The notes below the pieces were generated by a model. It was given only the letters and a program-made list of their open reading frames with translations. It ran no database searches and had not been told where the DNA came from. DNA of 64,000 bases, from contig NZ_CP035807.1 in NCBI RefSeq assembly GCF_008329945.1, positions 3,224,001 through 3,288,000 on the forward strand. The letters are read 5' to 3'. Source of the DNA: Thiospirochaeta perfilievii (GTDB lineage Bacteria > Spirochaetota > Spirochaetia > DSM-2461). Of the stretch, positions 9,941 through 46,603 are shown piece after piece; within the stretch, counting starts at the first letter, position 1; each line of letters starts with the position of its first letter. A program made the translations under genes and the position numbers.

Positions 9941-12631
9941 TTGAAGTGGATATTAAAACATTCAAAAATTGTAATTAGCGTAATTTTACTAATTACAGCT
10001 TTTTTAGGGTATCAAATAAAAGATCTAGTAATAGATAATGACGTAAATAATTTTTTCCCTAAAGATAACCCAGTATATGTTAGAACAAAGGCGATAGATG
10101 ACATATATGGAAGCCAGGTAGTTATGGATATTGCTATTACATCAAAGCAAAAAACCATATTAACAAAGGAAACAATTGAGGTTATTAAAAACATAACTAG
10201 AGATATTGAGAATCTAAAGTATGTTGATGATGTAACAAGCCTAACTAACAGTGATTTCCCAGAGGGATCAGACCTTGGAATGACTGTAGAGTCCCTAGTA
10301 ACAGATGACTTTACAGGTTCTACTAAGGAGTTATTAACTTTAAAACATAAGTTGTTAGACTGGCCTGATATGTATAGAAGGGTTTTATACTCTGACGATT
10401 TTAAGTCTACCCAGATTATTACATCTATAGACCATAAAATTGAGTCTGATTCCCTAGGGATACTTTATAATCAAATCCTTGATATATGTGAAAAATATAA
10501 AGATGATAACCTTGAGTTTGCAGTAGCTGGTAATCCTGTTGTAAATGAGGTTGCTAAGACCTATATGTATACGGATTTAGCAATACTAATCCCATTTGTT
10601 GTATTAGTGATTCTCTTTTCACTTTTTATATCCTTTAAAAAGATAGAAGGAACTATCCTTCCCCTAATTACTGTTGTTATTAGTACCATTTGGACTGTTG
10701 GGTTAATTTCCATGTTACATTATGACTTTACAGTTGTAACAACCTGCTTACCTGTTTTATTAATTGCAGTCGGTAGTGCATTTGGAATACATATTATTAA
10801 CCACTACTACCACGAATTAGAGAAAAAAGCTGGAACTATTTCTAAGGAAGAGCACTTTGAAGTAATTATTGACGGTTTAAAAACTGTAATTAAACCAGTT
10901 ATTTTAGCATCAGTTACTACAGTGTTAGGTTTCTTATCAATATTATCTAGTCCTGTTGGCCCACTAAAAACCTTTGGTTTATTCTCGGCTATAGGTGTAA
11001 CAATAGCCCTAGGTCTATCCCTTGTTTTTATTCCAGCTATGTTAGCTACAAAAAAGAGTCCAAAGGGTCTAGTTTTAGTAGATAGCGATGAAATTGAAAC
11101 AGGTTTTTTAATTAGCCTATATAACTACTTTAGTAAAAAGACTCCCCGGATAATTTTTATTACACTAATTCTATTATGTGTCTCTTTTTATGGTATTAAA
11201 AGATTAAATATAGAGAGCTCCCTAATTAAATACTTTCCAGAGGACTCTTTTATTAGATTAGACAATGAGTTAATTGCTGATAAGTTTGCAGGAACTAACG
11301 CCTTTGCCATAGAGATAAAGGGTAGTGAGCCTGGGGATTTAACAGATCCAATAATAATTAAAAAGATGGATGAACTCTCGGAGTATATTACAAACAATAA
11401 TCCAGAAGTTGGTAAGGTATTATCCTTTAGTGATTTTATTAAAAGAATTAATAAGGTGATGAACTATCCAATAATTGATGAGTCTAATATAACAGATGAG
11501 TATGTTGATGATAGTTCTACAGATTATACAGAAGAGGACTCCTTGGGCGACTTTTTTACAGAGGATACATCCACTGAAGATGACTCCTTTAGTGACTTTT
11601 TTACAGAGGAAACTTCTAGTGAGGATGACTCCTTTGGTGACTTTTTTGCCCAGGATGAAGAAACTGTTGATAGTGAGTTAACAGGGGATTCTAATAACTA
11701 TACAGAGCAGTATGTAAAAGAGATAACATATAGTGATTTCTTAGATCTTCTACACGATATTCACCAAAATAGTAGCACATTTAACTTAAGTGGTGATGAA
11801 CTTATTGAAGAGATAAATAAAATATACAACTATAACGGTGCTGCTTATAATGAGGTACCAACAGACCCTAAAAAATATGGTGCAGTGGATACAGAAGAGT
11901 TAAAAAATCTTATTTCCCAATACCTACTACTATATTCAGGATCCTTAGACCTATTTGCAGACGATGCATTAGCTCCCTCTGCAGCAAGAATGGTTGTATA
12001 TATTAAAAATAACGAAACAAATACAACTAAGAAGATTATTAAGGATGTTGAGAACTTTGCAGCAATTAACTTCCCAGAAAATATCACTGTTGAGTGTTCA
12101 GGGGTAGCTGCATTAGAACTTGCATTAACAGATATGATTACAGGTTCCCAGATAGTAAGTTTATTAATCGCTCTACTACTGGTTTACATAATTATATCCC
12201 TATCATTTAAATCACCAATTGCTGGTCTATTTGGTATTGTACCACTATCAGTAGCAATAGTAATCAACTTTGGAATTATGGGTATATTTGGTATCAACCT
12301 TGATATGATAACAGCCCTTGTAGCTTCAATCGCCATTGGTGTTGGAGTTGATTATACTATCCACTTTTTAAATACATATCACAAACAGAGACTACTAAGC
12401 GATGACTTAAAAGTAGTTTCTAAAAATACAATTGTTACATCTGGAAAGGCAATTATTATAAATGCCGTTTCAGTAGCCCTTGGTTTTATGGTTTTAGTTT
12501 TTAGTAACTTTATTGTTCTAAGATATATAGGTGTATTAGTTGCAATAATTATGATTACATCATCTCTTGCAGCACTAACAATCTTACCAATTTTATTAAA
12601 AATCTTTAAACCAAAATTTATATTGAAGTAA
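9941..12631 (+). CDS. RND/MMPL superfamily exporter
   Basis: An inner-membrane transporter of about 896 residues. A longer frame opens at GTG 9911. The TTG at 9941 is preferred because TAAGGAG (9928-9934) sits 6 nt before it and the protein then begins MKWILKHSKIVISV at the first membrane helix. There are two halves, each with one transmembrane helix, a large periplasmic loop and five more helices. The second half has the proton-relay type motif GVGVDYTIHFLN; the matching site in the first half (AVGSAFGIHIIN) lacks the Asp. The second periplasmic loop holds three 15-residue acidic repeats (residues 533-577, DSxxDFF core). With the LolA-like and outer-membrane proteins downstream it probably moves lipid-like molecules across the envelope. 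Confidence 0.88.
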   Translation: MKWILKHSKIVISVILLITAFLGYQIKDLVIDNDVNNFFPKDNPVYVRTKAIDDIYGSQVVMDIAITSKQKTILTKETIEVIKNITRDIENLKYVDDVTSLTNSDFPEGSDLGMTVESLVTDDFTGSTKELLTLKHKLLDWPDMYRRVLYSDDFKSTQIITSIDHKIESDSLGILYNQILDICEKYKDDNLEFAVAGNPVVNEVAKTYMYTDLAILIPFVVLVILFSLFISFKKIEGTILPLITVVISTIWTVGLISMLHYDFTVVTTCLPVLLIAVGSAFGIHIINHYYHELEKKAGTISKEEHFEVIIDGLKTVIKPVILASVTTVLGFLSILSSPVGPLKTFGLFSAIGVTIALGLSLVFIPAMLATKKSPKGLVLVDSDEIETGFLISLYNYFSKKTPRIIFITLILLCVSFYGIKRLNIESSLIKYFPEDSFIRLDNELIADKFAGTNAFAIEIKGSEPGDLTDPIIIKKMDELSEYITNNNPEVGKVLSFSDFIKRINKVMNYPIIDESNITDEYVDDSSTDYTEEDSLGDFFTEDTSTEDDSFSDFFTEETSSEDDSFGDFFAQDEETVDSELTGDSNNYTEQYVKEITYSDFLDLLHDIHQNSSTFNLSGDELIEEINKIYNYNGAAYNEVPTDPKKYGAVDTEELKNLISQYLLLYSGSLDLFADDALAPSAARMVVYIKNNETNTTKKIIKDVENFAAINFPENITVECSGVAALELALTDMITGSQIVSLLIALLLVYIIISLSFKSPIAGLFGIVPLSVAIVINFGIMGIFGINLDMITALVASIAIGVGVDYTIHFLNTYHKQRLLSDDLKVVSKNTIVTSGKAIIINAVSVALGFMVLVFSNFIVLRYIGVLVAIIMITSSLAALTILPILLKIFKPKFILK
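11537..11671 (+). repeat. Three tandem 45-bp coding repeats in the exporter gene
   Basis: Units begin at 11537, 11582 and 11627, exactly 45 bp apart. Each encodes a 15-residue acidic segment with a DSxxDFF core followed by T or A and acidic residues. They lie in the second periplasmic loop of the RND protein. Confidence 0.85.
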
Positions 12632-23882: not shown

Positions 23883-26800
23883 ATGATATCAAAGATTTAC
23901 TATTTTATAGTAGCAACTCTAATTATAGCAACTTTAGTTGCGTGTGAACTTTTTACATCAGGTTATGGGGAGAAGGTTGACTTAAGTGAACCTAGTATCT
24001 CAATAAGCGATCCTGTTAATGTGGAGTATAAGGGTGGAACTTTTACTCTAAAGGGTGTTGCCTCTGATGATACTAGTATAAAAGAAGTTGTTGTTGAATT
24101 TAAAAGCCCTGTAACTAATGATACAAAAACTAGAACTGCAACTTTAAGCGATAATAACTGGTATTTAGATATTGATAGTGATGACTCCTCCATATTTAAA
24201 GATGGAGAAGTTGAATTTACTGTTACTGCTATAGACTCTGTTGATAAAAAGAGTAGCAAAAATATTATAGTTTATCTAGATAACACCCTTCCTACTGTTT
24301 TAGTTGAATCCCCAAATTCCCAGGATAAAGATATAATTAATGGTATTCTTGATGTTATAGGATCAGCCAAAGACGCAAGTCTAGAGAAGCTTGAAGTTTA
24401 CATTGTTTCGTCAGATGATCCTACAAAAAGATATTTAGGTGTAACAGAGGGAACTTCTAGTTGGAAAGCAACATTTAATACAGAGAAATTAGAAATAGGT
24501 CTATTATCAAGTCAGACATACTATTTGGAAGTAATCGCCTATGATGTTGCAGGTAATCAGAGTAGTTACTTCTATTATAATGATGACTTATTTAGTGAAG
24601 AGATGACTCAAATAAAATCAGACCTTGGGATAAATAGTAGACCTATTGATATGTTAGCAGATATTAATAATATCGATCTTTTTGAATCGATACAGAGGTC
24701 AGATAGCTTAGCTGATAGGCTTAATTTTAATATATACCAAGATAGAGATAGACCAGAGATTATTTTGTCTAGTGATTGGGATCTTTCTTCTCCAGATAAT
24801 CTTAAATCATTTACAAATAGTGTAAATCTATCAGCTCAAGTTAAAGATGACGATGGTATTAAGACCATCGTTTTATCTGTTTATAAAAAGAGTGATAATT
24901 CACTTGTTAGACAGGGGACAATTAAACCTCTTGGATCTAGGAGCTATAATTTAGATGTAATACTAGACTCGGTTAATTGGTCTGGGTTTACTATGACCCC
25001 TGATCTTAGTAGTGGAATACTTCCAGAGGACTCTTACTATTTTACCCTAACTGTAACTGATATAGAGGGTGCATTTTCAGGTGTTGCAGATTTACCTAAC
25101 CCGGCAAATTTTGGAATAGACAGAAATAACCCAGAAGTAAAAATATTATCCTCATTATCAAATAAATATTACAATTCAAATGTAGATGTTATTATTGAAG
25201 CGAAGGATAATGTAGGTGTAACTAAGGTTGATCTATATATTAACGATGTAGATGATAAAACCCCTCTAAGTGCAATAAAACAAGATGATGGAAATTGGAA
25301 ATATACAGTAAAAACTTTAGACTATATAACAGAAGAAGATTTAGATGTAAACCTAAGTATAAAAGTTGTTGCCTCCGATGCTAGTGGAAAAACCGACACT
25401 GAGAGTATGTCTATTTACTTAGATATATTACCTCCAGTGTTAGAAGATTCAAAGATAACTATGCCAGCTAGTTTAAATCAAACTGTGGAAATAGAAGTTA
25501 CTCCTGTAGATAAAAACCTTGATAGTGTCGAATATAATTTAGATAATGAAGAAGATTGGAAACCAGTTAGTAAGGTTGATGGTTCTACTAGTATAATTAC
25601 TCTGTTAACAACAGATTATGCGGATGGAAATCATACTCTTAACTTAAAGGCAATTGATACTGCTGGGAATATTACTGAGCTTTCTAAAATTATTACCATA
25701 GATCAAGATTCTGATAAACCTGTAATTACATTTAAAACACCAGATGAAACAAATGATATCAATAGTTTTTCAGGCGCTGTTACTATTTTGGCTGAACTTA
25801 AAGATGATGATGCTATTGATGAAGAAAGTATCGTTTTAAAAATTGATGATGAAAAAGTTATTGCTTCAGAATATATAAAGCAGAATGTTGGGGGAGTTGT
25901 TACATTAAAATATACTCCAACATTTGATGATGATGGTGATCATAGTGTTTCAGTATTTGTAGCAGATAAAAAAGATATTGGTGTTGTGAAGGATGTAACA
26001 AAAAATATAGATTTTGTAATCGACTCTCGTGGTCCTACTATCAATAATATAAAAGTAGATTCAGAAGTTATCTCTAGTTTAATGTATAAAAAATCAGACT
26101 TTACTCTTTCGGGTAATGCAGCTGACTTAAAGGATGTTTCAAAGATTACAATAAAAGCTACATTTGGTGATTCGGAACCAGTTATTTATGTTATACCTTT
26201 TGATGCTGTTACTCCAAATGTTACATGGATTCAAATTATCAATGTGGATGGTAATGTTAATGATAGTGAAGAAAAGCCTCTTACAGTAACAATAGAAGCA
26301 ATAGATGCAGCTGGTAATTCAAGCGGTATTGTTACTAAAAATTTAATTATTGATAAAATAAAACCTGTATTAGATAGTGTATTATCATCGAATATTGAGA
26401 ATTTAAATGGAATAGAGACTATATCTGGAGGAGCTAGTGATGATCATTTATCATCAGTTAAAATAGCTTATATCGGTAAGAATGATGGTAAAACATCTTG
26501 GCTTAATATTGAAGGTTCACCGTATTCCTGGAAATATTATCTTGATACTAAAAAAATTGAAGATGGAAATTCCACTTTTTATGTACAAGCTACAGATCTT
26601 TCAGGAAATATTTCTAATAAAGAATACACTATAAATATAGATCAGCTAAGCGATAAACCTCAGTTTATATTTGATAAACCTATTATTAGCGGGGGAAATG
26701 AGACTACAAACTTGTTTGGATCGTCTGCTTCTGTTTCAGGATCAGTAACAGATGATGACGGTATTGATAGAGGTGAAATAAATATTTATCTATATGATTA

Positions 26801-27887
26801 TGATAATGTATTACTATACACAACAAATTTTATCCCAACTCCAGGTGGTTCTGATAAATCCATACCTTGGGAATTTGATCTATCTTCCTTGTCTCAGGGG
26901 ATTTATTATATTCAAGTTGAGGCTAAAGATGATATAGATTATAAATTGAATGGAGATGTAGTCTCTTCTAATATTTCAAATAAGAATATTTTTGCTATCG
27001 ACTTTGGTGCACCAACTTTAGATATATCTTCCCCTTTAAATGCCACTACAGAAATAACCTATCTAAATAGTCAAATGATTCTAGCTGGTAATGTAAAAGA
27101 TGGTTTAGGAGTTAAAACATTAACTTATCAATTAGGTTCTTTAGACAAAGTTACTATATTTACAGATAAGCAGTACTTAGACTACAACTGGTCTAAAACA
27201 TTAACTTTAGATGAACTTAAATTAGCAGGAACAAGTTTTAGTATTAACTTAGAAGCTACAGATATTACAGGAAAAGTTATTAAATCTACTATGCCTGTTT
27301 TTATTGATGAATCAGGACCAATACTTACAGTTACTACACCACTTAATAATTCTATTAATGAATCAAGTCCTATATCTTTAGAAGGTACTATTCTGGATCT
27401 AGGTTCCGGGTTTAGTTATCCAGTGGATGGTGATTTAAGTTCCTTAAATTATGATTTAGCTTATAGTTTAAATAGTGGAGTAGATGTGCCTATTTCTTTA
27501 ACAGAGGGTGATACTAAGTGGCTAAAAGATTTAGAACTTACTACAGAAGGAACATACAATCTTAAATTTAAATCTAAGGATAGAATAGGGAATGTAAAGA
27601 ATAGCTCAAATATAACATTCTATTATGATAAATCTAAACCTGATTTTACAGAAGTTGACTCTACTTACAGCGAAACTGAAGTTTTAACTAATAGTAGTGT
27701 TAATTTTGGTGGACACTTATCTGATAGTAATGGGCTATTAGCTTTTAATGTTAAAGTAAATACTGAAGATGAAATCAATTTATTAAGTTCTGTAGAGTCT
27801 AATGGGACTTGGTCATATACCCTTCCAAAGGTCGATGGGATTATAGTGTTACATTTACAGCAACAGATAAAGCAAATAGATCGGTAG
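23883..27887 (+). CDS. Giant Ig-like repeat lipoprotein, N-terminal frame (frameshifted)
   Basis: The first 1,334 codons of a giant surface protein. It begins with a lipoprotein signal peptide whose lipobox is LVAC (Cys21), so the mature protein is lipid-anchored. The rest is a string of divergent Ig-like/cadherin-like domains of about 95-110 residues. Most end in ATDxxGN-type strands, and linkers have forms such as QDSDKPVITF or FVIDSRGPTI. The last meaningful residues are near TLPKVDG. Beyond codon 1318 the frame gives a short nonsense tail, while the Ig-like sequence continues in the -1 frame (next entry). One extra G in the GGG at 27837-27839 would join both into about 4,778 codons. Adhesion or polymer binding is inferred from architecture. 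Confidence 0.8.
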   Translation: MISKIYYFIVATLIIATLVACELFTSGYGEKVDLSEPSISISDPVNVEYKGGTFTLKGVASDDTSIKEVVVEFKSPVTNDTKTRTATLSDNNWYLDIDSDDSSIFKDGEVEFTVTAIDSVDKKSSKNIIVYLDNTLPTVLVESPNSQDKDIINGILDVIGSAKDASLEKLEVYIVSSDDPTKRYLGVTEGTSSWKATFNTEKLEIGLLSSQTYYLEVIAYDVAGNQSSYFYYNDDLFSEEMTQIKSDLGINSRPIDMLADINNIDLFESIQRSDSLADRLNFNIYQDRDRPEIILSSDWDLSSPDNLKSFTNSVNLSAQVKDDDGIKTIVLSVYKKSDNSLVRQGTIKPLGSRSYNLDVILDSVNWSGFTMTPDLSSGILPEDSYYFTLTVTDIEGAFSGVADLPNPANFGIDRNNPEVKILSSLSNKYYNSNVDVIIEAKDNVGVTKVDLYINDVDDKTPLSAIKQDDGNWKYTVKTLDYITEEDLDVNLSIKVVASDASGKTDTESMSIYLDILPPVLEDSKITMPASLNQTVEIEVTPVDKNLDSVEYNLDNEEDWKPVSKVDGSTSIITLLTTDYADGNHTLNLKAIDTAGNITELSKIITIDQDSDKPVITFKTPDETNDINSFSGAVTILAELKDDDAIDEESIVLKIDDEKVIASEYIKQNVGGVVTLKYTPTFDDDGDHSVSVFVADKKDIGVVKDVTKNIDFVIDSRGPTINNIKVDSEVISSLMYKKSDFTLSGNAADLKDVSKITIKATFGDSEPVIYVIPFDAVTPNVTWIQIINVDGNVNDSEEKPLTVTIEAIDAAGNSSGIVTKNLIIDKIKPVLDSVLSSNIENLNGIETISGGASDDHLSSVKIAYIGKNDGKTSWLNIEGSPYSWKYYLDTKKIEDGNSTFYVQATDLSGNISNKEYTINIDQLSDKPQFIFDKPIISGGNETTNLFGSSASVSGSVTDDDGIDRGEINIYLYDYDNVLLYTTNFIPTPGGSDKSIPWEFDLSSLSQGIYYIQVEAKDDIDYKLNGDVVSSNISNKNIFAIDFGAPTLDISSPLNATTEITYLNSQMILAGNVKDGLGVKTLTYQLGSLDKVTIFTDKQYLDYNWSKTLTLDELKLAGTSFSINLEATDITGKVIKSTMPVFIDESGPILTVTTPLNNSINESSPISLEGTILDLGSGFSYPVDGDLSSLNYDLAYSLNSGVDVPISLTEGDTKWLKDLELTTEGTYNLKFKSKDRIGNVKNSSNITFYYDKSKPDFTEVDSTYSETEVLTNSSVNFGGHLSDSNGLLAFNVKVNTEDEINLLSSVESNGTWSYTLPKVDGIIVLHLQQQIKQIDR

Positions 27888-30800
27888 AGATAAATAGGAA
27901 GATAAAGATTGATGCGACTCTTCCAGAATTAAATGTTAAAAGTATAGTTTCAGATGTTTCAGGTGTTGATGATGGTAAGGAAGTGCTTTCAGGTAATTAT
28001 AAATTTGAAGGTAGTTCTTCTGATACAGGTTCAAATGTTAAATCGGTATATTATAGTTTAAATGGAAATGAATACCTGTTAGCAACTGGTACAACAATAT
28101 GGAATGTAACAGTAGATACCACGTCTTTACCTGAGGGTGTAAATAATATAAAATTTAAAGCTACAGACAACTCAGGAAACTTTGTTGAGAGTAGTGATAT
28201 AGAGTTTGTTGTAGACCAAAGTGCCCCAATACTAAGTGAAACATTTATAGGTTCATCTCAAAAGAAAACAAACATCTCTTATACTTTAGAAGGAACAATT
28301 TCCGATACCTATGGAATAGCTAGCTTAACAATAAATGGTAATGCTCCAACAACAAATAGTGGTGGATCATGGACATATAGTGTAACAACTCCAGTAGAGG
28401 GAGAAGAAACTTATACGGTAGTTGCTACAGATAACTCTGGTAGAAAAACAAGTTTAACAAGATCCGTATTATATGATGTAACAGCTCCTGAAGTAGATGG
28501 AATTGATGCTATAACTGGTTTTGTAAGTGGTAGTTCATATACATTTAAAGGAGTGGCTTCCGATGATAATGGAGTTACTAACTCTGGGATAAATAAAGTT
28601 GAGTACCAAGTAACAGCAAAAGATGTTGCAGTTGTAGAAGAGGATTGGGTAGCCGCTAGTGGAAGTACTAGCTGGAATGGAACCTTTGCTCTTAGTATCT
28701 CAGAAGGTGATAAGACAGTACATGTAAGGGTAACTGATGAAGCAGGAAATGTAAGTGTAATATCAACAAAAGATTTTGTTTTTGATCAGGGAGTACCAAG
28801 TCTAGCTGTAACAACAAACCCTGTTTCCATAACTAAAGGTTTCTTTACAATATCAGGAACAGCTAGTGATAGTAATGGATTAAAAGATAATAAAATAAAC
28901 CTAAATGTAGCAGGAACAGACTACCTAATAACAGTAACAGATGGATCTTGGACATATACAGGGGATTTATCTGGTAAAACTGACGGTTCATACGACATAA
29001 CAGTACTTGCCACAGATGTAGCAGATAGACCAAGTGTAGAGCTTGTAAAATCTATTCAGGTTGATAAGGTAGCTCCACTAGTAGAAGTAGGAACAGTGTC
29101 ACCTCTTGTAAATACAGATGAAGTAAATGGAACAATAGAGTTTAGTGCAACAGCTTCAGATCCTAATGGATTAGAGGGTGTTCGTTATTGGATACTCCCA
29201 TCAACAGATGAAGCCCCAAGTTGGGATACTACTAATTATACTCTTTTTGGAGCAGCACCATACTCCGTAACAGGAATAGATACAACAGATACAAGTAAGT
29301 TCACAGATGGGAATAGCTACAAAATTTGGGTATTAGCTCGGGATAAGGCTGGTAATGATAATATCGATTCAAAATTAATAACAGTAAACCAGGCCTCAGA
29401 TATCCCAACCGTTGACTTTACTAATATTGAAAAAATAACATCAGAGATAGCAATAGATTCAACTCCATCAGCAACAAAAAATCTATTTCTATCAACAGTT
29501 AAAATAATAGGAACAGTTGCAGATGATGATTCTGTAGATGCTTCTACAATCCAAGTAAGTTTAAATGGAGCAGCTCCAACAGGTGTTACTACAGGTAACA
29601 GTTCATCAAATGGTTCTTTAGTCTACTGGGATAATACATTTGCTACTGGATTAGTAGATGGAAATAATACTTTAGTTGTAACAGCCACAGATACAAATGG
29701 GAAAGCTTTTACCTCTGATACGTATAACTTTTTTGTAGATAAATCGAATCCAAGTTTAACAATAACAGACAATAAACCTGCAGAAGGTAGTAGTGTAAAA
29801 AGTGTTATAACACTTTCAGGAACAGTCTCAGATGCACACTTAGAAAGTGTATTAGTAACTCTAGAAGGTGGAAATGTAACAGAGGCAACAGTAAGTGGTA
29901 GTAGTTGGAATCTAGTTTCAAACGCATCAGGGTTTGATGCAGAAGGAACTAAAACTATTACAGTAACTGCAACAGATAAATTTGGTAAAACAACCGAGAA
30001 AGAGATATCTGTTTTATATGATAAAACAGCACCAACCTTAGCTCCTGGAGAAATCGACTCAGATGTATCAGGTGTAGCCGAAGGTCTAGAAGTGATATCT
30101 GGAGAGTATATATTTACTGGAACTGCAAGTGATACGAACTCTTTAGTAAGCAAAGTAGAGTACAGTTTAAATGGTGCAGCCTATGAATTAGTAACAGGTA
30201 CAAATAGTTGGAATGTAACAGTAGATACCACGTCTTTATCTGAGGGTGTAAATAATATAAAATTTAAAGCTACAGACAACTCAGGAAACTTTGTTGAGAG
30301 TAGTGATATAGAGTTTGTAGTAGACCAAAGTGCCCCAATGCTAAGTGAAACCTTTATAGGTTCATCTCAAAAGAAAACAAACAGCTCTTATACTTTAGAA
30401 GGAACAATTTCCGATACCTATGGAATAGCTAGCTTAAAAATAAATGGAAATGCTCCAACAACAAATAGTAGTGGATCATGGACATATAGTGTAACAGCTC
30501 CAGTAGAGGGAGAAGAAACTTATACAGTAGTTGCTACAGATAACTCTGGTAGAAAAACAAGTTTAACAAGATCCGTATTATATGATGTAACAGCTCCTGA
30601 AGTAGATGGAATAGATGCTATAACTGGTTTTGTAAGTGGTAGTTCATATACATTTAAAGGAGTGGCTTCCGATGATAATGGAGATACTAACTCTGGGATA
30701 AATAAAGTTGAGTACCAAGTAACAGCAAAAGATGTTGCAGTTGTAGAAGAGGATTGGGTAGCCGCTAGTGGAAGTACTAGCTGGAATGGAACCTTTGCTC

Positions 30801-33800
30801 TTAACATCTTAGAAGGTGATAAGACAGTACATGTAAGGGTAACTGATGAAGCAGGAAATGTAAGTGTAATATCAACAAAAGATTTTGTTTTTGATCAGGG
30901 AGTACCAAGTCTAGCTGTAGCAACAAACCCTGTTTCCATAACTAAAGGTACCTTTACAATAGCAGGAACAGCTAGTGATAGTAATGGATTAAAAGATAAT
31001 AAAATAAACCTAAATGTAGCAGGAACAGACAACCTAATAACAGTAACAGATGGATCTTGGACATATACAGGGGATTTATCTGGTAAAACTGACGGTTCAT
31101 ACGACATAACAGTACTTGCCACAGATGTAGCAGATAGACCAAGTGTAGAGCTTGTAAAATCTATTCAGGTAGATAAGGTAGCTCCACTAGTAGAAGTAGG
31201 AACAGTGTCACCTCTTGTAAATACAGATGAAGTAAATGGAACAATAGAGTTTAGTGCAACAGCTTCAGATCCTAATGGATTAGAGGGTGTTCGTTATTGG
31301 ATACTCCCATCAACAGATGAAGCCCCAAGTTGGGATACTACTAATTATACTCTTTTTGGAGCAGCACCATACTCCGTAACAGGAATAGATACAACAGATA
31401 CAAGTAAGTTTACAGATGGGAATAGCTACAAAATTTGGGTATTAGCTCGGGATAAGGCTGGTAATGATAAAGCAGATTCTAAAGAGATAACAGTAAACCA
31501 GGCCTCAGATATCCCAACCGTTGACTTTACTAATATTGAAAAAATAACATCAGAGATAGCAATAGATTCAACTCCATCAGCAACAAAAAATCTATTTCTA
31601 TCAACAGTTAAAATAATAGGAACAGTTGCAGATGATGATTCTGTAGATGCTTCTACAATCCAAGTAAGTTTAAATGGAGCAGCTCCAACAGGTGTTACTA
31701 CAGGTAACAGTTCATCAAATGGTTCTTTAGTCTACTGGGATAATACATTTGCTACTGGATTAGTAGATGGAAATAATACTTTAGTTGTAACAGCCACAGA
31801 TACAAATGGGAAAGCTTTTACCTCTGATACGTATAACTTTTTTGTAGATAAATCGAATCCAAGTTTAACAATAACAGACAATAAACCTGCAGAAGGTAGT
31901 AGTGTAAAAAGTGTTATAACACTTTCAGGAACAGTCTCTGATGCACACTTAGATAGTGTTTTAGTAACTCTAGAAGGTGGAAATGTAACAGAGGCAACAG
32001 TAACTGGTAGTAGTTGGAATCTAGTTTCAAACGCATCAGGGTTTGATGCAGAAGGAACTAAAACTATTACAGTAACTGCAACAGATAAATTTGGTAAAAC
32101 AACCGAGAAAGAGATATCTGTTTTATATGATAAAACAGCTCCAACCTTAACTCCTGGAGAAATAGACTCTGAGGTATCAGGTGTAGCCGAAGGTAGAGAA
32201 GTGATATCTGGAGAGTATATATTTACTGGAACTGCAAGTGATACGAACTCTTTAGTAAGCAAAGTAGAGTACAGTTTAAATGGTGCAGCTTATGAATTAG
32301 TAACAGGTACAAATAGTTGGAATGTAACAGTAGATACCACGTCTTTAACTGAGGGTGTAAATAATATAAGTTTTAAAGCTATAGACAACTCAGGAAACTT
32401 TGTTGAGAGTGGTGATATAGAGTTTGTAGTAGACCAAAGTGCCCCAATACTAAGTGAAACCTTTATAGGTTCATCTCAAAAGAAAACAAACAGCTCTTAT
32501 ACTTTAGAAGGAACAATTTCCGATACCTATGGAATAGCTAGCTTAACAATAAATGGAAATGCTCCAACAACAAATAGTGGTGGATCATGGACATATAGTG
32601 TAACAACTCCAGTGGAGGGCGAAGAAACTTATACAGTAGTTGCTACAGATAACTCTGGTAGAAAAACAAGTTTAACAAGATCCGTATTATATGATGTAAC
32701 AGCTCCTGAAGTAGATGGAATAGATGCTATAACTGGTTTTGTAAGTGGTAGTTCATATACATTTAAAGGAGTGGCTTCCGATGATAATGGAGTTACTAAC
32801 TCTGGGATAAATAAAGTTGAGTACCAAGTAACAGCAAAAGATGTTGCAGTTGTAGAAGAGGATTGGGTAGCCGCTAGTGGAAGTACTAGCTGGAATGGAA
32901 CCTTTGCTCTTAGTATCTCCGAAGGTGATAAGACAGTACATGTAAGGGTAACTGATGAAGCAGGAAATGTAAGTGTAATATCAACAAAAGATTTTGTTTT
33001 TGATCAGGGAGTACCAAGTCTAGCTGTAACAACAAACCCTGTTTCCATAACTAAAGGTTCCTTTACAATATCAGGAACAGCTAGTGATAGTAATGGATTA
33101 AAAGATAATAAAATAAACCTAAATGTAGCAGGAACAGACTACCTAATAACAGTAACAGATGGATCTTGGACATATACAGGGGATTTATCTGGTAAAACTG
33201 ACGGTTCATACGACATAACAGTACTTGCCACAGATGTAGCAGATAGACCAAGTGTAGAGCTTGTAAAATCTATTCAGGTTGATAAGGTAGCTCCACTAGT
33301 AGAAGTAGGAACAGTGTCACCTCTTGTAAATACAGATGAAGTAAATGGAACAATAGAGTTTAGTGCAACAGCTTCAGATCCTAATGGATTAGAGGGTGTT
33401 CGTTATTGGATACTCCCATCAACAGATGAAGCCCCAAGTTGGGATACTACTAATTATACTCTTTTTGGAGCAGCACCATACTCCGTAACAGGAATAGATA
33501 CAACAGATACAAGTAAGTTTACAGATGGGAATAGCTACAAAATTTGGGTATTAGCTCGGGATAAGGCTGGTAATGATAAAGCAGATTCTAAAGAGATAAC
33601 AGTAAACCAGGCCTCAGATATCCCAACCGTTGACTTTACTAATATTGAAAAAATAACATCAGAGATAGCAATAGATTCAACTCCATCAGCAACAAAAAAT
33701 CTATTTCTATCAACAGTTAAAATAATAGGAACAGTTGCAGATGATGATTCTGTAGATGCTTCTACAATCCAAGTAAGTTTAAATGGTGGCTCTTATGTTT

Positions 33801-36800
33801 CTGTTGATTCTGGAACAACATCAGATAATGGTTCATTAGTTAGTTGGAGTCATACTTTTTCTAGTTCAGACTTAATTGAGGGAGACAATGAATTTACAGT
33901 GAAAGTTTCTGATATAAATACTTTAGCTAAAACTTTAACTTCCGAAGTTTATCATTTCTTTGTTGATAAATCTGACCCTGTAGTTAATGTGTCTGAACCA
34001 ATACAAAGTGCTTATGTTAAAGGTTCAGCAAGAACCAGTGGAGAAGCATATGATGGTACATCTTTAGCATCATTTACAATTACTGCAAATAATGCATCAA
34101 CTACATCAGTAATAAATGTAGATAATGCAAATACCCAATGGGGATTAACAACCACAGAAAACACTGGTGAGTTTTATTGGGATACTACTAATGAAAAATA
34201 TATCTGGGATTTTGCACTCGAACAGTTACCAGATGAATATGAAAATAGACCAATAACAATTTCTTATAATGCAGTCGATTCATTTGATAAAAAGAGCGTT
34301 GTAGATAGATCAATTACTATTGATTCTGTATCTCCAGATGTCGATATTCAATATCCTGCACTAGATTCAGTTGTTACTGGATCAGTAACAATTAAAGGGA
34401 TAACTACAGATGAAAAGATGAAAACTGTTGAAATTAAACTTGGAAACAGTGGTTCTTGGGAGTTATTAGATGGTACATATAACTGGAGTAAAACTATTAA
34501 TACTGTTGCCACTTCTGTTTATACTGATGGAAATGATCAAGGTGATGGTACATGGGAATATCCTGTACAAATTAGAGCTACAGATTCTGCAGGTAATGTT
34601 ACTATTGAAAATTCATATCAATTTTATATTAGTCCAGACCTTGATAAACCAACTGTTAGTATTACATCCCCTTCAAATGGAGCAAAACTAGGTGGAACAA
34701 TATTACTAATTGGAACAGCCACAGATAATGAAGCTGTTAGTAAGGTTTATATTAGAGCAGATGTAAATGGAGATGGGGATTTTGTAGACTCATATGATCT
34801 AGATAATAATCCAGGAACTTCTCATATTTTTGATAATGAGTCTTCGTGGACAGAAATTACAAACTTTAGTAACAGTGTATGGCAACAGGAGATAAATAGT
34901 GATGGTCTTCTTTACAGTGAAAATTCAAATATTACAGGTGCAACTGGTGTAATAAATATTCAATTCAAAGCTGTAGATCTAAAGGGTGTAGAGAGTCTGT
35001 TGGTTACAAGAAATATTGATATTGACAGTACATTCCCTGAAATTACTCAATTTGAAGTACTTGATGATAATTCTAATCCTATAACAGATGTAAAAGGTAC
35101 TTTTGATATCAAAGTTTCTACAACAGATAATGAAGGTGGAATAACAGCTATAGATATTAGTTATAATGGTGGAATTAGCTATGAATCTGTATTAAGTACA
35201 GGTTCTCCTAATGTTACTGAAACGTTAACAATCCCTGTAGATTCTATAAATGAACTAGGTTATACAAATAGTAGTGATATAATTAACGTTAGATTAAAAG
35301 TAACAGATACAACAGGTTATCAGTCTTTTAAAAGTCTTCAATTAAGTATTGATAATATTAATCCTACAGCATCTTACACTGGCCGAGTTGATGATATTGG
35401 AACTGCAGGGGGAACAGGGGTTGAGAATCGAGTAACTGTTTCAGGTATTTATGAAGATACTGGTCTTGTAAGTAGTTTTGGTAGAATTGAAGCATACTTA
35501 TCCCAGGATGGAGTAATTATTGATCCAAATACTGGAGAAACAAGTAGTAATACCACTATAGATTTTAATGATGGCAATGGAGCTGTTGTTTATCCAGATA
35601 ATAATAAAGATCTTATCACAATTGATTGGGATGCTGCTGTCCTAGAGAGAGGGAAAGATGACTCTGGAGATGGAGATGGATATTACGAATATATTTCAAC
35701 AGCTTCTGGTGTATATAACTGGTCTGCAGAGTTTGATACTAGTTCTATTGATACAGACTTAGGAGCCGTAGAACTTCACTATGTTGTATATGATAAAGCA
35801 GGAAACTCTAGTCACTATGTAGAAATAATGTTGATTGTTGGTTCGGACTTAGATGATAGTGGAGTAATTGAGGAGTCAGAGCAGATGGCATACCCTCAAT
35901 CCTTCCAAGCAAGAAGTGGATTACTTTATGTTGAATTATTTGGTGGTAGTAAAGCAAACTATTATCTAGAAATATCAGACTCTTCAGGTGTGGTTAAAAC
36001 AACAGATAAAAATACAACTGAAACAACTTTTAATACTTCAGCCTATGATGGTGAAACAGAGTTCATTATTAGGGTTTACGACTATGTTGATGGTGTGAAT
36101 GATACTTTGAAATTAACTAAAAATTTAGAAGTTGATATGAAGGGAGCTGATACAATTCCTCCTACAATTACAGTTAGTGATTTAACAACTAATTCTGTTG
36201 TTGATGGTCATTTAGATGTGGGTGATTTTAGTTCTAATCCTGCAACAAACACCAATGATAAGGATATTAGTGGAGAGCTTCAATTTATTGGAGTAGCAGC
36301 TGATGATTCAAGAATAAAAGATATAACATTAAGCATAACGGGAGAAAGTGATGTAGTAATTGCACAGTGGGTTGAAGGTCTATTTAAATCTGTAGATCCA
36401 AATACAACAATTGTTAGCCAGGAATTACATTGGAAAGATGGTCATACTGTTAATTTTACATATAACTGGGATACTGAAACTTTAACAAATGTTGCTGATG
36501 AAAATAGAGTTGTTGAATTTACAGTTAATGATTTTATTGCAGACCACACTGTAAGTGATATTGACCAGTTTGATGTAGTTCCATATATAACTTCTATTAC
36601 TAGAAATGGTTTTAATACTAATAGATCTAAACTAGGATTCTACCCAGTAAGAAGAGAAGAGACTGGTTTAATTATAGATGGGTTTAACCTAAGAAGTACA
36701 ACAATACCTGGTAGTGTTACTATTGATAATATTTCCATTTCATCAACAATTAGTGGAAGTAGTGATAGTTCAATATTAATTGATATACCAACAACAGCAA

Positions 36801-38218
36801 GATCAGGATATTTAGAACTTACTGTAAATGGCGTTTCAGCCATAAATAATAGTAATAATAACAACTATACTACAAATAGTGAGAAGAATCCTTACCTAGA
36901 AGAATCAGAGTTATGGACAGATGATAGATATATTCATATTTGGCAATCTAACAATACATCAACTGGTTCAAATAGAGGGTACTTTACAGGCAGTGATTCA
37001 CCTAAGTATCCAGCAATGACAATAGACAATAGTGGTCTTTTATATGCATCTTGGAGTAATTATGCTGATTCAACAATAAATTATGCTCCTAATAATGGAA
37101 ATGCTACACAAATTTATCAGGCATATGACCCATCAGAACATACAGACATCTCCTTTGGAGACAGACTCTCTGTTGTTTGGAATGCAAATATCTATGGGAA
37201 TAATAGGTGGGATGTAACAGGAGCCGGAGGTGTTTATGTATGGGATTCAAATGCAAATGCTGCAGCTTCTAGAAACTCTGGTAATGCCTATGAATCTGAA
37301 CTTTTATATCATGATGAACAGTTAATGCAGTTTGTTAATGAGAGAGTTATTACAAATGGTAATGATATTCATGTTAGTTATTATGATACTGATACTAAAT
37401 CTATAAAATATTGGCATAAAACAAGCGGTAGTAATCCTAGTTATAGCTGGGACAATACTGAAAGAAAATATATTTTTGATAATGAATCCCAGTACTATAC
37501 TTGGGTAAACTTAGATGGTTATTATGATACCCACGATACTTATAATACAAATCGTGTTTTAGGTGGAACTGGTAGTAGAACAGATACTATGAAGGCTGGT
37601 GAGTATAGTGCTATTGATGTAAATAGTAATGGATACCCACTTGTAGCATATTATGATTTAACAAATCAGAAAGTTAAATTAGCTGTTTCAAGTTCGACAA
37701 ATCCTAAAGTTGGAGACTGGTTAACTCAGGATGTAACATCTAATAGCAGTTATACTGGTAAGTTTATCTCAATGAGAGTAGATTCCAGTAATTATGTTCA
37801 TATGACATTCTATAAAACAAGTACAGGAGACCTTATGTATATTAAATCAACAAATAATCCATCTGACGGAACAGCTTACACATTTGATGATCCAGTATTA
37901 ATAGACTCAAATGGATCCGTAGGAATGTGGGCAGACTTAACGTTAGATGGAACAACTCCAATTATTTCATATCTTGATTCTTCTAGAGTTAATACTTTTG
38001 ATGGTTTAAAAGTTGCAACAATTGAAACAGATTTTGATATAAATAACGATGGCTCAGCTGATACAGTATGGGAAACCCAAAACATACCTTTAGCCTATGA
38101 GGCAGACAGTGTAAGAACCAGCGTAGAAGCAGATACTGGAACAAACTTCTGGGATAAGGCTGTTGGATATGGCTCTAGTGATTATTATAGAATTGCTTAT
38201 TATGTTCCAAAACAGTAA
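27809..38218 (+). CDS. Giant Ig-like repeat surface protein, C-terminal frame with near-identical 703-residue repeats
   Basis: A 3,469-codon frame; genuine coding sequence starts near 27840, and the ATG at 27809 is inside the overlap. In order: divergent Ig-like domain; 2.7 near-identical copies of a 703-residue block, each about seven Ig-like domains (28100-33786); further divergent Ig-like domains with Ca-binding-type loops, including a canonical EF-hand loop DLDDSGVIEESE (35846-35881); an IPT/TIG-like domain (about 36.6-36.9 kb, LIIDGFNL to GYLELTVNGV); and a C-terminal propeller-like region with repeated YPLVAYYD / IISYLDSS strands. Its stop overlaps the next start by one base. It is probably an extracellular, lipid-anchored, calcium-stiffened adhesin or ligand-capture fibre; this is inference. 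Confidence 0.82.
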   Translation: MVIYPSKGRWDYSVTFTATDKANRSVEINRKIKIDATLPELNVKSIVSDVSGVDDGKEVLSGNYKFEGSSSDTGSNVKSVYYSLNGNEYLLATGTTIWNVTVDTTSLPEGVNNIKFKATDNSGNFVESSDIEFVVDQSAPILSETFIGSSQKKTNISYTLEGTISDTYGIASLTINGNAPTTNSGGSWTYSVTTPVEGEETYTVVATDNSGRKTSLTRSVLYDVTAPEVDGIDAITGFVSGSSYTFKGVASDDNGVTNSGINKVEYQVTAKDVAVVEEDWVAASGSTSWNGTFALSISEGDKTVHVRVTDEAGNVSVISTKDFVFDQGVPSLAVTTNPVSITKGFFTISGTASDSNGLKDNKINLNVAGTDYLITVTDGSWTYTGDLSGKTDGSYDITVLATDVADRPSVELVKSIQVDKVAPLVEVGTVSPLVNTDEVNGTIEFSATASDPNGLEGVRYWILPSTDEAPSWDTTNYTLFGAAPYSVTGIDTTDTSKFTDGNSYKIWVLARDKAGNDNIDSKLITVNQASDIPTVDFTNIEKITSEIAIDSTPSATKNLFLSTVKIIGTVADDDSVDASTIQVSLNGAAPTGVTTGNSSSNGSLVYWDNTFATGLVDGNNTLVVTATDTNGKAFTSDTYNFFVDKSNPSLTITDNKPAEGSSVKSVITLSGTVSDAHLESVLVTLEGGNVTEATVSGSSWNLVSNASGFDAEGTKTITVTATDKFGKTTEKEISVLYDKTAPTLAPGEIDSDVSGVAEGLEVISGEYIFTGTASDTNSLVSKVEYSLNGAAYELVTGTNSWNVTVDTTSLSEGVNNIKFKATDNSGNFVESSDIEFVVDQSAPMLSETFIGSSQKKTNSSYTLEGTISDTYGIASLKINGNAPTTNSSGSWTYSVTAPVEGEETYTVVATDNSGRKTSLTRSVLYDVTAPEVDGIDAITGFVSGSSYTFKGVASDDNGDTNSGINKVEYQVTAKDVAVVEEDWVAASGSTSWNGTFALNILEGDKTVHVRVTDEAGNVSVISTKDFVFDQGVPSLAVATNPVSITKGTFTIAGTASDSNGLKDNKINLNVAGTDNLITVTDGSWTYTGDLSGKTDGSYDITVLATDVADRPSVELVKSIQVDKVAPLVEVGTVSPLVNTDEVNGTIEFSATASDPNGLEGVRYWILPSTDEAPSWDTTNYTLFGAAPYSVTGIDTTDTSKFTDGNSYKIWVLARDKAGNDKADSKEITVNQASDIPTVDFTNIEKITSEIAIDSTPSATKNLFLSTVKIIGTVADDDSVDASTIQVSLNGAAPTGVTTGNSSSNGSLVYWDNTFATGLVDGNNTLVVTATDTNGKAFTSDTYNFFVDKSNPSLTITDNKPAEGSSVKSVITLSGTVSDAHLDSVLVTLEGGNVTEATVTGSSWNLVSNASGFDAEGTKTITVTATDKFGKTTEKEISVLYDKTAPTLTPGEIDSEVSGVAEGREVISGEYIFTGTASDTNSLVSKVEYSLNGAAYELVTGTNSWNVTVDTTSLTEGVNNISFKAIDNSGNFVESGDIEFVVDQSAPILSETFIGSSQKKTNSSYTLEGTISDTYGIASLTINGNAPTTNSGGSWTYSVTTPVEGEETYTVVATDNSGRKTSLTRSVLYDVTAPEVDGIDAITGFVSGSSYTFKGVASDDNGVTNSGINKVEYQVTAKDVAVVEEDWVAASGSTSWNGTFALSISEGDKTVHVRVTDEAGNVSVISTKDFVFDQGVPSLAVTTNPVSITKGSFTISGTASDSNGLKDNKINLNVAGTDYLITVTDGSWTYTGDLSGKTDGSYDITVLATDVADRPSVELVKSIQVDKVAPLVEVGTVSPLVNTDEVNGTIEFSATASDPNGLEGVRYWILPSTDEAPSWDTTNYTLFGAAPYSVTGIDTTDTSKFTDGNSYKIWVLARDKAGNDKADSKEITVNQASDIPTVDFTNIEKITSEIAIDSTPSATKNLFLSTVKIIGTVADDDSVDASTIQVSLNGGSYVSVDSGTTSDNGSLVSWSHTFSSSDLIEGDNEFTVKVSDINTLAKTLTSEVYHFFVDKSDPVVNVSEPIQSAYVKGSARTSGEAYDGTSLASFTITANNASTTSVINVDNANTQWGLTTTENTGEFYWDTTNEKYIWDFALEQLPDEYENRPITISYNAVDSFDKKSVVDRSITIDSVSPDVDIQYPALDSVVTGSVTIKGITTDEKMKTVEIKLGNSGSWELLDGTYNWSKTINTVATSVYTDGNDQGDGTWEYPVQIRATDSAGNVTIENSYQFYISPDLDKPTVSITSPSNGAKLGGTILLIGTATDNEAVSKVYIRADVNGDGDFVDSYDLDNNPGTSHIFDNESSWTEITNFSNSVWQQEINSDGLLYSENSNITGATGVINIQFKAVDLKGVESLLVTRNIDIDSTFPEITQFEVLDDNSNPITDVKGTFDIKVSTTDNEGGITAIDISYNGGISYESVLSTGSPNVTETLTIPVDSINELGYTNSSDIINVRLKVTDTTGYQSFKSLQLSIDNINPTASYTGRVDDIGTAGGTGVENRVTVSGIYEDTGLVSSFGRIEAYLSQDGVIIDPNTGETSSNTTIDFNDGNGAVVYPDNNKDLITIDWDAAVLERGKDDSGDGDGYYEYISTASGVYNWSAEFDTSSIDTDLGAVELHYVVYDKAGNSSHYVEIMLIVGSDLDDSGVIEESEQMAYPQSFQARSGLLYVELFGGSKANYYLEISDSSGVVKTTDKNTTETTFNTSAYDGETEFIIRVYDYVDGVNDTLKLTKNLEVDMKGADTIPPTITVSDLTTNSVVDGHLDVGDFSSNPATNTNDKDISGELQFIGVAADDSRIKDITLSITGESDVVIAQWVEGLFKSVDPNTTIVSQELHWKDGHTVNFTYNWDTETLTNVADENRVVEFTVNDFIADHTVSDIDQFDVVPYITSITRNGFNTNRSKLGFYPVRREETGLIIDGFNLRSTTIPGSVTIDNISISSTISGSSDSSILIDIPTTARSGYLELTVNGVSAINNSNNNNYTTNSEKNPYLEESELWTDDRYIHIWQSNNTSTGSNRGYFTGSDSPKYPAMTIDNSGLLYASWSNYADSTINYAPNNGNATQIYQAYDPSEHTDISFGDRLSVVWNANIYGNNRWDVTGAGGVYVWDSNANAAASRNSGNAYESELLYHDEQLMQFVNERVITNGNDIHVSYYDTDTKSIKYWHKTSGSNPSYSWDNTERKYIFDNESQYYTWVNLDGYYDTHDTYNTNRVLGGTGSRTDTMKAGEYSAIDVNSNGYPLVAYYDLTNQKVKLAVSSSTNPKVGDWLTQDVTSNSSYTGKFISMRVDSSNYVHMTFYKTSTGDLMYIKSTNNPSDGTAYTFDDPVLIDSNGSVGMWADLTLDGTTPIISYLDSSRVNTFDGLKVATIETDFDINNDGSADTVWETQNIPLAYEADSVRTSVEADTGTNFWDKAVGYGSSDYYRIAYYVPKQ
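27837..27839 (+). other. Frameshift joining the two halves of the giant lipoprotein
   Basis: Reading GTC GAT GGG and then continuing with GAT TAT AGT (one G read twice or one G missing from the run) fuses the upstream Ig-like frame to the downstream one in the middle of a domain. The corrected gene length of 14,337 nt is divisible by three. A sequencing error, a true mutation or slippage are all possible. Confidence 0.8.
28100..30208 (+). repeat. 2,109-bp tandem coding repeat, copy A
   Basis: Starts at the TGGAATGTAACAGTAGATAC segment. The same landmarks recur exactly 2,109 bp (703 codons) later without a net indel. Compared with copy B there are about 20-25 residue differences in 703. Confidence 0.93.
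30209..32317 (+). repeat. 2,109-bp tandem coding repeat, copy B
   Basis: Second full copy. It is distinguished by private variants such as PMLSETF, GDTNSG, LNILEGD, AVATNP and TKGTFTIAG, where copies A and C agree with each other. Confidence 0.93.
32318..33786 (+). repeat. 2,109-bp tandem coding repeat, copy C (partial, 1,469 bp)
   Basis: Matches the first 1,469 bp of copies A and B and ends abruptly after AAGTTTAAATGG. There copies A and B continue with an Ala-Ala-Pro codon set, while this one changes to a diverged Ig-like domain. Confidence 0.92.
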
Positions 38219-39495
38219 TGGGTAGGTTTACATTGAAAGGAAAAGTAATAATAGCAGGTCTTATATTATCATTAGGCCTGTTTTTAACATTTTTAATAGT
38301 CATAAATAACAGAAAAAAAATAGAAGGTGAAATTAATTTAGTAATTAATTCCTCAAATAGTAAATACGATAATTTTAGTGAAAATATTTTGAAATCTTAT
38401 TCATATAAGAGTGATAAGAGGGTTAAAATTACCACGTCGGTTAAAAATGAATCAAATTATTTAGGATATATAAATAAAAGTTTTTTATTAGAAAACAGTG
38501 AGGATATTTTTTATACAGTTTTTAGCTCTCAGTTATATAATAGTTTAAGGGAGAAATCAGGGCTTAGATACTTCGATAATTATATAACGGAAGATCTTGT
38601 AAAACCATTTTACACCTTAAGTATGGATTCAAGTAGTTATTTTTATATACCTATAACTTGGTCTCCTTGGGGTATATATTATAATAAGGAGATCTTTAAA
38701 GAGTACAATTTGAAAGAACCTTCTACCTTAGATGAGTTAGATACTCTTTGTGCAAAGATGCTAGATTACAATATTACTCCTTTTTCTATGCTACAAGATT
38801 TAAAATGGCCAATAACCGCATGGTTTGATTACCTTAATATTAGATTAAACGGTATTCAGTTTCATAAAAACTTATTAAATGGATTGATTGAATTTACAGA
38901 TCAAAGAGTCTTACAAACTTATGAAAGATTATATCTATTGATAAATAAAGGATATTTCTATTTCGATGATTCGATTGAGTGGACAGAAATGTTAAAACAG
39001 ATTGATAGCAGAGAAACAGCTATGGTTTTAGGAGGAGCATTTTATTACGAAAATGCATCAGAAAAATTAAAGAAGAATTTAGGTTGGTTTCCTTTCCCTC
39101 TAGTTGATGTTGGAGAAAGTTATAATGAGATAATATCATCTTCTGGTTTTGTTGGCAAAACTGTTGCAGGTGTAAATGAAGATGTTTTCGAAGACTTCTA
39201 TAAATATGCTCTATCAGAAGGTGGACAAAATATTGTAGTAAATTATTCAAATTTATATCCTATTAACGAAAAATCTTTAAATAAACTAAATCGAGAAGAT
39301 TTAAATAAAGCATATACTCATATAAAAAATTCTACATCATTAACATCTTCCTTTGAAAGAAATAGTAATGAAACAATTATACAACCTCTTAAATGGTCTA
39401 TTTCTTCATTATTTAACATTAGTGATAAAGAAGAAATAAAAGTAATTTTAAGCAAACTAGAAGAAATTCGTATCTCAAGTCTAAAATTGGAATAA
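38218..39495 (+). CDS. Membrane-anchored ABC-type sugar-binding-protein-like protein (orphan)
   Basis: A 425-residue protein whose ATG overlaps the stop of the giant gene (TAATG), so it is translationally coupled. An N-terminal membrane segment (about residues 9-28) lacks a lipobox Cys and looks like an uncleaved anchor or signal peptide. The rest resembles family 1 extracellular solute-binding proteins: IPITWSPWGIYYNKEIFKEY, PSTLDELDTLCAKMLD, AMVLGGAFYY, NLGWFPFPLV. Such proteins bind sugars or oligosaccharides for ABC importers. No permease or ATPase gene is near, so it may capture or sense ligands held by the giant surface protein. That role is inference; the fold assignment is reasonably good. 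Confidence 0.75.
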   Translation: MGRFTLKGKVIIAGLILSLGLFLTFLIVINNRKKIEGEINLVINSSNSKYDNFSENILKSYSYKSDKRVKITTSVKNESNYLGYINKSFLLENSEDIFYTVFSSQLYNSLREKSGLRYFDNYITEDLVKPFYTLSMDSSSYFYIPITWSPWGIYYNKEIFKEYNLKEPSTLDELDTLCAKMLDYNITPFSMLQDLKWPITAWFDYLNIRLNGIQFHKNLLNGLIEFTDQRVLQTYERLYLLINKGYFYFDDSIEWTEMLKQIDSRETAMVLGGAFYYENASEKLKKNLGWFPFPLVDVGESYNEIISSSGFVGKTVAGVNEDVFEDFYKYALSEGGQNIVVNYSNLYPINEKSLNKLNREDLNKAYTHIKNSTSLTSSFERNSNETIIQPLKWSISSLFNISDKEEIKVILSKLEEIRISSLKLE

Positions 39496-45596: not shown

Positions 45597-46603
45597 ATGG
45601 CAGTAACAATTAATGATGTAGCAAAAATGGCAGGTGTTTCCCATACAACGGTATCATGGGTAATACACAACGATCCTAGAATTACTCAAAAGACAAAGGA
45701 TAAGGTAAATAAAGCTATTGAAAAGCTAAATTATCATCCTAATTACAATGCGAGAAGTCTTGTTAAGGGTAAAACCGATGCTATTGCTGTAGTTACAAGC
45801 TTTTTCTCAACATACTTTGAGTTAAGTGTATTAAGGGGTATAGAGACTGCCATGGGCAACTGTAAGAAAAATTACAACCTTAACCTATACTCCACATCAA
45901 ATAGGGAAGATGAAGTATTAAACGAGATTCTTTACGGAAGAAGAGCTGATGCAGTAATACTTTTAAGTGAATCTCCATCACAAAAAATAATTAATGATTA
46001 TAATGCAAAAAACATACCTCTTATTCTTGTAGAAAATTATCATGATGAACTTATATCTGTAAAGTCAAACAGTATTAAGGGGGTAAGGATGCTGCAGATT
46101 ATCTCTTTAGTATAGGTTTAAGTAAAATTGGAATAATTGTAGAGAATTTAACAGATGAAGATATTCCTGGTCTTAGTCAGGTTGAAAGAATGATAGGGTT
46201 TAAAAAGTCCTTTGAAGAGCACGGTTTAACTGTTAATGAAGATTTAGTATTTGAACTAAAACATTTTAGAATGGAAACAGGCCGTAATTTTGCAAGAAAG
46301 ATTGTTAATGAGAATATCGATATAGATGGAATTTTTTGCGCAGCAGGGGATAAGGTTGCACTAGGTCTAATAGATGAGCTTAAGAAGCTTGGCAAACGGA
46401 TACCAGAGGATTATGCTGTTGTTGGTTTTGATGATATTGATATAGCAGAGTTAGTATCACCACCTTTAACAACTATTAGACAGGATTTACACGGACTAGG
46501 TGAGACCGCATATAATTTAGCTGTTCAGGCTATAGAGAAGGAAGAAATTACCCAGAGACATATAGAGTTTGATACAACATTAATAGTTAGGGGAACAGCT
46601 TAA
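45597..46603 (+). pseudogene. LacI family transcriptional regulator, interrupted by a frameshift
   Basis: Residues 1-60 are a canonical LacI DNA-binding domain (VTINDVAKMAGVSHTTVSWVI) with the hinge region. The ligand-binding domain begins at DAIAVVTSFF. The first frame ends at a stop at 46113-46115 just after SNSIKG. The ligand-binding domain continues in another frame (KDAADYLFSIGLSKIGIIV, later PEDYAVVGFDDIDIAELVSP and TTIRQDL) to the TAA at 46601-46603. One extra G in the GGGGG at 46079-46083 restores a single frame of about 335 codons. It probably regulates the coupled glycosidase-like gene and perhaps the Ig-protein genes. A sequencing error rather than a true pseudogene is quite possible. 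Confidence 0.85.

Follow-up and report, generated by a model that had tools for sequence, protein, structure and literature searches.

The window analysed here is a stretch of 64,000 nucleotides from the spirochaete Thiospirochaeta perfilievii. It contains a giant gene for a lipoprotein built largely of Ig-like domains, which the assembly presents as two open reading frames (ORFs). A tandem array of nearly identical coding units lies within it. The features of the locus, in window coordinates, are as follows.

23883-27887, plus strand: N-terminal ORF of the giant gene, 1,334 aa; lipoprotein signal LVAC-ELFTSGYGEKVD and about 12 Ig-like domains
27810-27845, plus strand: frame break, where homology leaves frame 3 of the upstream ORF and continues in frame 2, that of the downstream ORF
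27809-38218, plus strand: 3,469-aa ORF for the C-terminal part of the giant protein, with array, distal stalk and head
27908-28099, plus strand: left edge of the array; N-terminal part of domain d0, a diverged homologue of the start of D7
28100-29568, plus strand: core, copy 1 (half of d0, D1-D4, half of D5)
29569-30208, plus strand: spacer, copy 1 (half of D5, D6, half of D7)
30209-31677, plus strand: core, copy 2
31678-32317, plus strand: spacer, copy 2
32318-33786, plus strand: core, copy 3; its D5 continues into a D5 orthologous to that of a same-genus relative (genome G001)
33787-34111, plus strand: right edge of the array; rest of D5 and start of the next domain, a diverged homologue of the spacer start
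36563-38215, plus strand: C-terminal head; a short "VPYI" domain, then a predicted beta-propeller
38218-39495, plus strand: gene for a solute-binding protein, its start falling on the array ORF's stop codon
39630-45545, plus strand: another Ig-rich protein of 1,971 aa, whose C-terminal stretch resembles an outer-membrane barrel ending in Phe

Organization of the giant gene

The giant protein consists of about 40 domains, with the array in mid-stalk. The lipobox LVAC stands at the start of the upstream ORF, and its Cys is invariant in the family alignment. The array ORF begins at TTG and has no signal peptide or other export signal of its own. Pfam (E<=0.01) recognizes Big_13, Big_7, Glucodextran_B, Big_3_3 and Big_3_2 in the giant gene and no Big_2, and NCBIfam Ca_tandemer matches are present.

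The ortholog in G001 (locus L017) is a single, repeat-free frame of 3,943 aa that stays open through the domain where the frame breaks in the window. It adjoins a gene resembling the window's anaerobic ribonucleotide reductase. Residues 1-1334 of the upstream ORF are collinear with G001 residues 1-1325 at 48% identity. Collinearity resumes at D4/D5 of copy 3 and extends over G001 residues 2279 to about 3402. Since both flanks are collinear with an ortholog in one frame, the two ORFs are halves of one gene.

A reading made from the sequence alone (the sequence-only reading) had assigned the array to a surface protein. At the level of the family this probably holds, given the lipobox at the start of the upstream ORF. 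As assembled, however, that signal and the array ORF stand in different frames, a point the sequence-only reading had missed, and if the assembly is read literally the array lacks export.

A LacI-type regulator gene is also split, 7 kb downstream of the array ORF. Its HTH part (45597-46115) and its sugar-binding domain (46190-46603) are in different frames, likely through an assembly indel or because it is a second pseudogene. Because the giant gene and the regulator are both broken within 20 kb, assembly indel errors are plausible, and the frame break at 27810-27845 may plausibly be one of them. Programmed frameshifting was considered for this break and set aside, since inspection by eye revealed no classical slippery sequence and the broken regulator makes a sequence error likelier.

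The repeat array

When the window is compared with itself, positions 28100-33786 form 2.70 in-register copies of a 2,109-bp unit that codes for seven Ig domains. Identity at a lag of 2,109 bp starts exactly at 28100 and stops at 33786. Shared 20-mers number 2,704 at this lag and 1,145 at a lag of 4,218, with no further recurring lags in the window. In a search of the whole genome (3.70 Mb, two contigs) the unit matches only 28100-30208, 30209-32317 and 32318-33786, and no copy was found elsewhere.

The order within the array is core-spacer-core-spacer-core, with a 1,469-bp core present three times and a 640-bp spacer twice. DNA identity is 98.0% between copies 1 and 2 (42 differences in 2109 positions), 98.3% between copies 1 and 3 (25 in 1470) and 98.5% between copies 2 and 3 (22 in 1470), without a single indel. 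The proteins of copies 1 and 2 are 97% identical. The unit of 703 aa comprises seven Ig-like domains, D1-D7, of 87-115 aa each. Antisense ORFs at 29623-30153 and 31732-32262 are the same frame in both spacers and were taken as chance.

Within the unit the domains are unlike. Adjacent domains in the array are 22-42% identical, whereas mean identity reaches 93% for domains seven apart and 89% for those fourteen apart. At all other spacings the mean is 32-37% (about 33%). The longest exact direct repeat inside one unit is 12 bp, compared with identical stretches of up to 506 bp between units. The sequence-only reading had described 2.7 in-register copies of a block of about seven domains, with about 97 percent protein identity and highly diverged neighbouring domains, and each of these points is borne out.

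The edges of the array are also related to the unit. On the left (27839-28096), protein identity to unit residues 617-702 is 49%. To the right of 33786, homology continues to unit residue 596, and the third match is 87% identical overall. If the diverged edges, which the sequence-only reading had overlooked, are counted, the array spans nearly three units. Because the edge domains are diverged homologues of unit domains, the crossovers probably fell within related domains.

A model of the D2-D3 pair has a predicted Ig fold (pLDDT 86), with the giant adhesin SiiE among its structural neighbours, alongside other adhesins. A search of PDB sequences with the unit gave no match.

Probable exchange between copies

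In the core, copies 1, 2 and 3 carry 16, 13 and 7 private variants. Differences between copies are clustered (P 0.0002, 0.0006 and 0.05). For copies 1 and 2, nine close pairs of differences are seen against 2.4 expected (P 0.0002). One cluster, at the end of D4, consists of eight differences private to copy 1 within 16 bp. The longest identical runs measure 452-506 bp, where about 212-244 would be expected (P about 0.001-0.002). We read the clustered differences and long identical tracts as signs of gene conversion after duplication.

The synonymous divergence between copies (dS) is 0.013-0.036, a value that does not serve as a clock. The conversion-like tracts mean that the copies have been exchanging sequence, so age is not readable from their identity. 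Values of dN/dS between copies are about 0.43, 0.30 and 1.1, which lend weak support to selection on the array.

A changing stalk

Elsewhere in the genus, the closest match to the block reaches 39% protein identity. With copies 98% identical, this supports an amplification later than the split from the genus-mates. The sequence-only reading had called the amplification very recent. It is recent relative to the genus split, but conversion blurs any finer age.

In G001, the conserved root and the conserved distal stalk are separated by about 950 aa of Ig domains that are not clearly orthologous to those in the window. The same zone of the window holds d0, D1-D3 and two further seven-domain units. 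The flanks are orthologous and the zone in G001 is unlike and shorter, which indicates that it has changed since the genus split. No trace of a seven-domain period is found in G001. On the reading we favour, the array is a genuine tandem amplification, specific to this lineage, of a block of seven Ig domains within a giant lipidated protein's stalk.

A further ortholog (L018, on contig G002:C36) lies on a contig that ends within the matching stalk zone. Its frame breaks in mid-stalk, some 200 bp short of the contig's end. The break sits at an apparent short tandem duplication at a VEYSL motif and may be a contig-end error or real.

The family and its heads

In members of the family a P-G-L-G-x-x-[VI]-D motif comes after the lipobox, the stalk is made of Ig domains, and the head at the C-terminus, about 500-600 aa long, begins with a VPYI motif. 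The window has the lipobox, the motif in the variant form CELFTSGYGEKVD after the lipobox Cys, the Ig stalk and the VPYI domain with its propeller-like head, with start and head on two ORFs. When the class was searched with a profile built on the N-terminal 150 aa, members turned up in 104 of its 297 genomes, and in 66 of the 206 better ones. Named matches to this profile are Spirochaetales genomes, for example Candidatus Marispirochaeta associata; the nearest named relative is the Spirochaetales MAG JAFGYD010000091.1, of the same genus. With the C-terminal region as query, no relative was found among the named genomes. Literature searches on giant spirochaete Ig lipoproteins returned no description of the family. 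In two genomes, three giant family genes lie within about 30-40 kb on one strand (L110-L112 on G274:C2; L089, L093 and L107 on G229:C7).

Pfam assigns the head to no family, and a PDB sequence search with it gave one weak match only (E 0.067). Its AlphaFold model, built from five sequences, has a mean pLDDT of 58, with 70-88 in the middle part. The best structural matches of this model are beta-propellers, namely the PLL, PHL and CV39L lectins (TM by target 0.54-0.59), sialidases and polysaccharide lyases. From the model, a carbohydrate-binding tip is a reasonable guess.

The heads do not follow the stems. The window and its genus-mate L017 are 47% identical at the N-terminus, 64-65% before the head and 29% in the last 560 aa. 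For L019, from another genus, the corresponding values are 28%, 49-50% and 60%. Likewise, L017 and L023 (from the genus of L019) have heads that are 55% identical and N-termini that are 29% identical. Such discordance implies that heads moved, or that old alternative types were sorted, independently of stems. Judged by these identities, the heads are mosaic relative to the stems, across genera. The locus points to a widespread spirochaete family of giant lipoproteins whose heads seem to be exchangeable.

Models for the origin and role of the array

The model that we favour, with moderate confidence, is recombination-driven lengthening of a stalk. It would be a block form of the process proposed for Periscope Proteins, operating in a giant, N-terminally lipidated spirochaete surface protein. 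In this model, unequal homologous recombination between the 2.1-kb copies, with their identical stretches of up to 506 bp, would add or remove whole blocks, and gene conversion would homogenise them. An Ig domain is about 4 nm long. Each seven-domain block might therefore extend the stalk by roughly 25-30 nm, and a longer stalk would move the predicted carbohydrate-binding propeller head further from the cell.

One alternative, which we consider unlikely, is that the gene is a pseudogene. The frame break would then be real, and the array ORF a decaying remnant whose repeat no longer serves any function. In favour of this, the gene is in two ORFs that differ in frame, of which only the first carries the export signal, and the G002 ortholog also has its mid-stalk break, about 200 bp from its contig end. 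Against this, 3,469 codons stay open, and across 5.7 kb of array the copies show no indel relative to one another. Moreover, the same-genus ortholog in G001 is intact, and the LacI-type regulator at 45597-46603 is likewise broken, which points to assembly indel errors.

Another model is concerted evolution. Here the seven-domain period is old, and gene conversion has kept the middle uniform while the outer edges diverged. The half-domains at both edges, as diverged homologues of unit domains, and the conversion-like tracts between copies would both be expected. The genus-mate, however, lacks the period, and its zone is not domain-orthologous, so that we hold this model to be improbable too.

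Finally, the copy number may be wrong, collapsed from more copies or falsely expanded, as the unit is longer than short reads, tandem repeats are a known source of assembly errors (PMC6868369) and the G002 contig ends in the matching stalk zone; but the main contig of 3.67 Mb, one of two in total, suggests long reads, and private substitutions in every copy (none being a plain duplicate of another) make a wholly false duplication less likely, which leaves this the most doubtful explanation. The copy number in the assembly is the assembler's figure, and the window is known from one strain. The differences in protein length between strains and the further copies hidden by collapse, both suggested in the sequence-only reading, are possibilities only.

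Block repeats in related giants

Recombination-driven lengthening, the reading preferred here, raises the matter of folding. Near-identical neighbouring domains misfold, and length-variable stalks are thought to bear a folding cost (PMC8201768, PMC4660218). Experiments with titin domains explain why there is a rule that neighbours be unlike (PMC4660218), a rule that Periscope Proteins break (PMC8201768). Because the unit here consists of seven unlike domains, the gene has both a long recombination substrate in its DNA and unlike folding neighbours. Such a unit would allow length to change by recombination without the cost of misfolding.

A survey took in 95 Ig-rich ORFs of the class, each 1,200 aa or longer. 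Repeats were 50-aa windows at least 70% identical, a spacing of 60-240 aa being taken as one or two domains and one of at least 300 aa as three or more. Near-identical domains one or two apart were found in none of the 95, and block repeats at three or more domains in nine, though the events are few, the ORFs are related and include some partner genes, and the thresholds were picked after the window had been seen. Long repeats also get lost in short-read assemblies. Three further family members have near-identical blocks at the DNA level, which measure 957 bp in L024, 1,065 and 1,089 bp in L077 and 1,761 bp in L092 (in a single-contig genome), compared with 2,109 bp in the window.

These stalks thus appear to keep the unlike-neighbour rule. 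The same survey picture would arise without selection if mutation favoured long blocks. With none of 95 giants having like neighbours and nine having block repeats, the survey makes the idea of cost-free length change testable.

A broader proposal is more tentative, and we would put it forward as possible only. Stalks might grow solely via blocks of three or more unlike domains, with like neighbours selected against, and lectin-like heads might be exchanged between genera. Together these would make up an undescribed, class-wide modular adhesin system. If this is true, the gene pairs long stretches of homologous DNA, suited to length switching, with folding neighbours that are unlike.

Comparison with known systems

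The closest parallel is with the Periscope Proteins, such as SasG, Rib, Sgo_0707 and CdrA (PMC8201768, PMC9704523). Both have long, highly identical DNA repeats within one gene, coding for a stalk of repeats that are folded domains in the Periscope Proteins and predicted to be so here, and in both, length change by recombination is proposed. Periscope repeats are tandem repeats of >50 aa, at least 80% identical, within one protein; the array repeats a 703-aa unit at 97% protein identity. Periscope Proteins carry a functional tip domain, to which the conserved, C-terminal propeller-like head (model pLDDT 58) may correspond here. They are anchored at the cell surface; the lipobox on the upstream ORF and across the family would suit such anchoring, the frame break in the window would not. 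Their repeat number varies between strains, as it would here if the array is of that kind. By analogy, the array may work like a Periscope stalk, a rod shape being suggested by the predicted Ig fold.

The two differ in their unit. In the Periscope examples the repeat is a domain or short domain unit and like domains lie close together, with SHIRT neighbours 82-100% identical (PMC8201768, PMC9704523). In the spirochaete array it is seven unlike domains, with adjacent identity of 22-42%. The Periscope examples are sortase-anchored or inverse autotransporters, whereas the spirochaete protein is an N-terminal lipoprotein with its head at the C-terminus. Block duplication is an already known type of event; what is distinctive here is that whole blocks of unlike domains repeat, and never neighbouring domains.

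LigA and LigB of Leptospira (PMC7821625) are likewise spirochaete lipoproteins with tandem bacterial Ig-like domains, some with a C-terminal extension. They share the N-terminal lipoprotein signal, found here as LVAC on the upstream ORF. Lig domains belong to Big_2, in contrast to the Big_13 and Big_7 that Pfam reports here without any Big_2. They are only moderately alike and have no near-identical repeats, whereas the giant protein comprises about 40 domains and ends in a propeller-type head.

Giant adhesins of the SiiE type resemble the protein in predicted repeat fold and in their very long stalk, and the NCBIfam Ca_tandemer matches are a further likeness. They are exported by type I secretion and are not known to carry an N-terminal lipobox. 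The super-repeats of titin have a higher-order period of several unlike Ig-type domains, as the array does. To our knowledge, they are eukaryotic, old and diverged, without near-identical copies in the DNA.

Neighbouring genes

The listed ORFs that flank the solute-binding protein gene (38218-39495) on either side are non-transporter genes. In several relatives (e.g. L025, L028 and L031-L033), Ig-rich genes of 1,350-1,960 aa adjoin the giant gene. Their adjacency hints that the giant gene and its adjoining Ig-rich gene might form a functional pair. Elsewhere in the window, an MMPL-family transporter gene contains a 45-bp in-frame tandem repeat of 2.6 copies (11531-11647).
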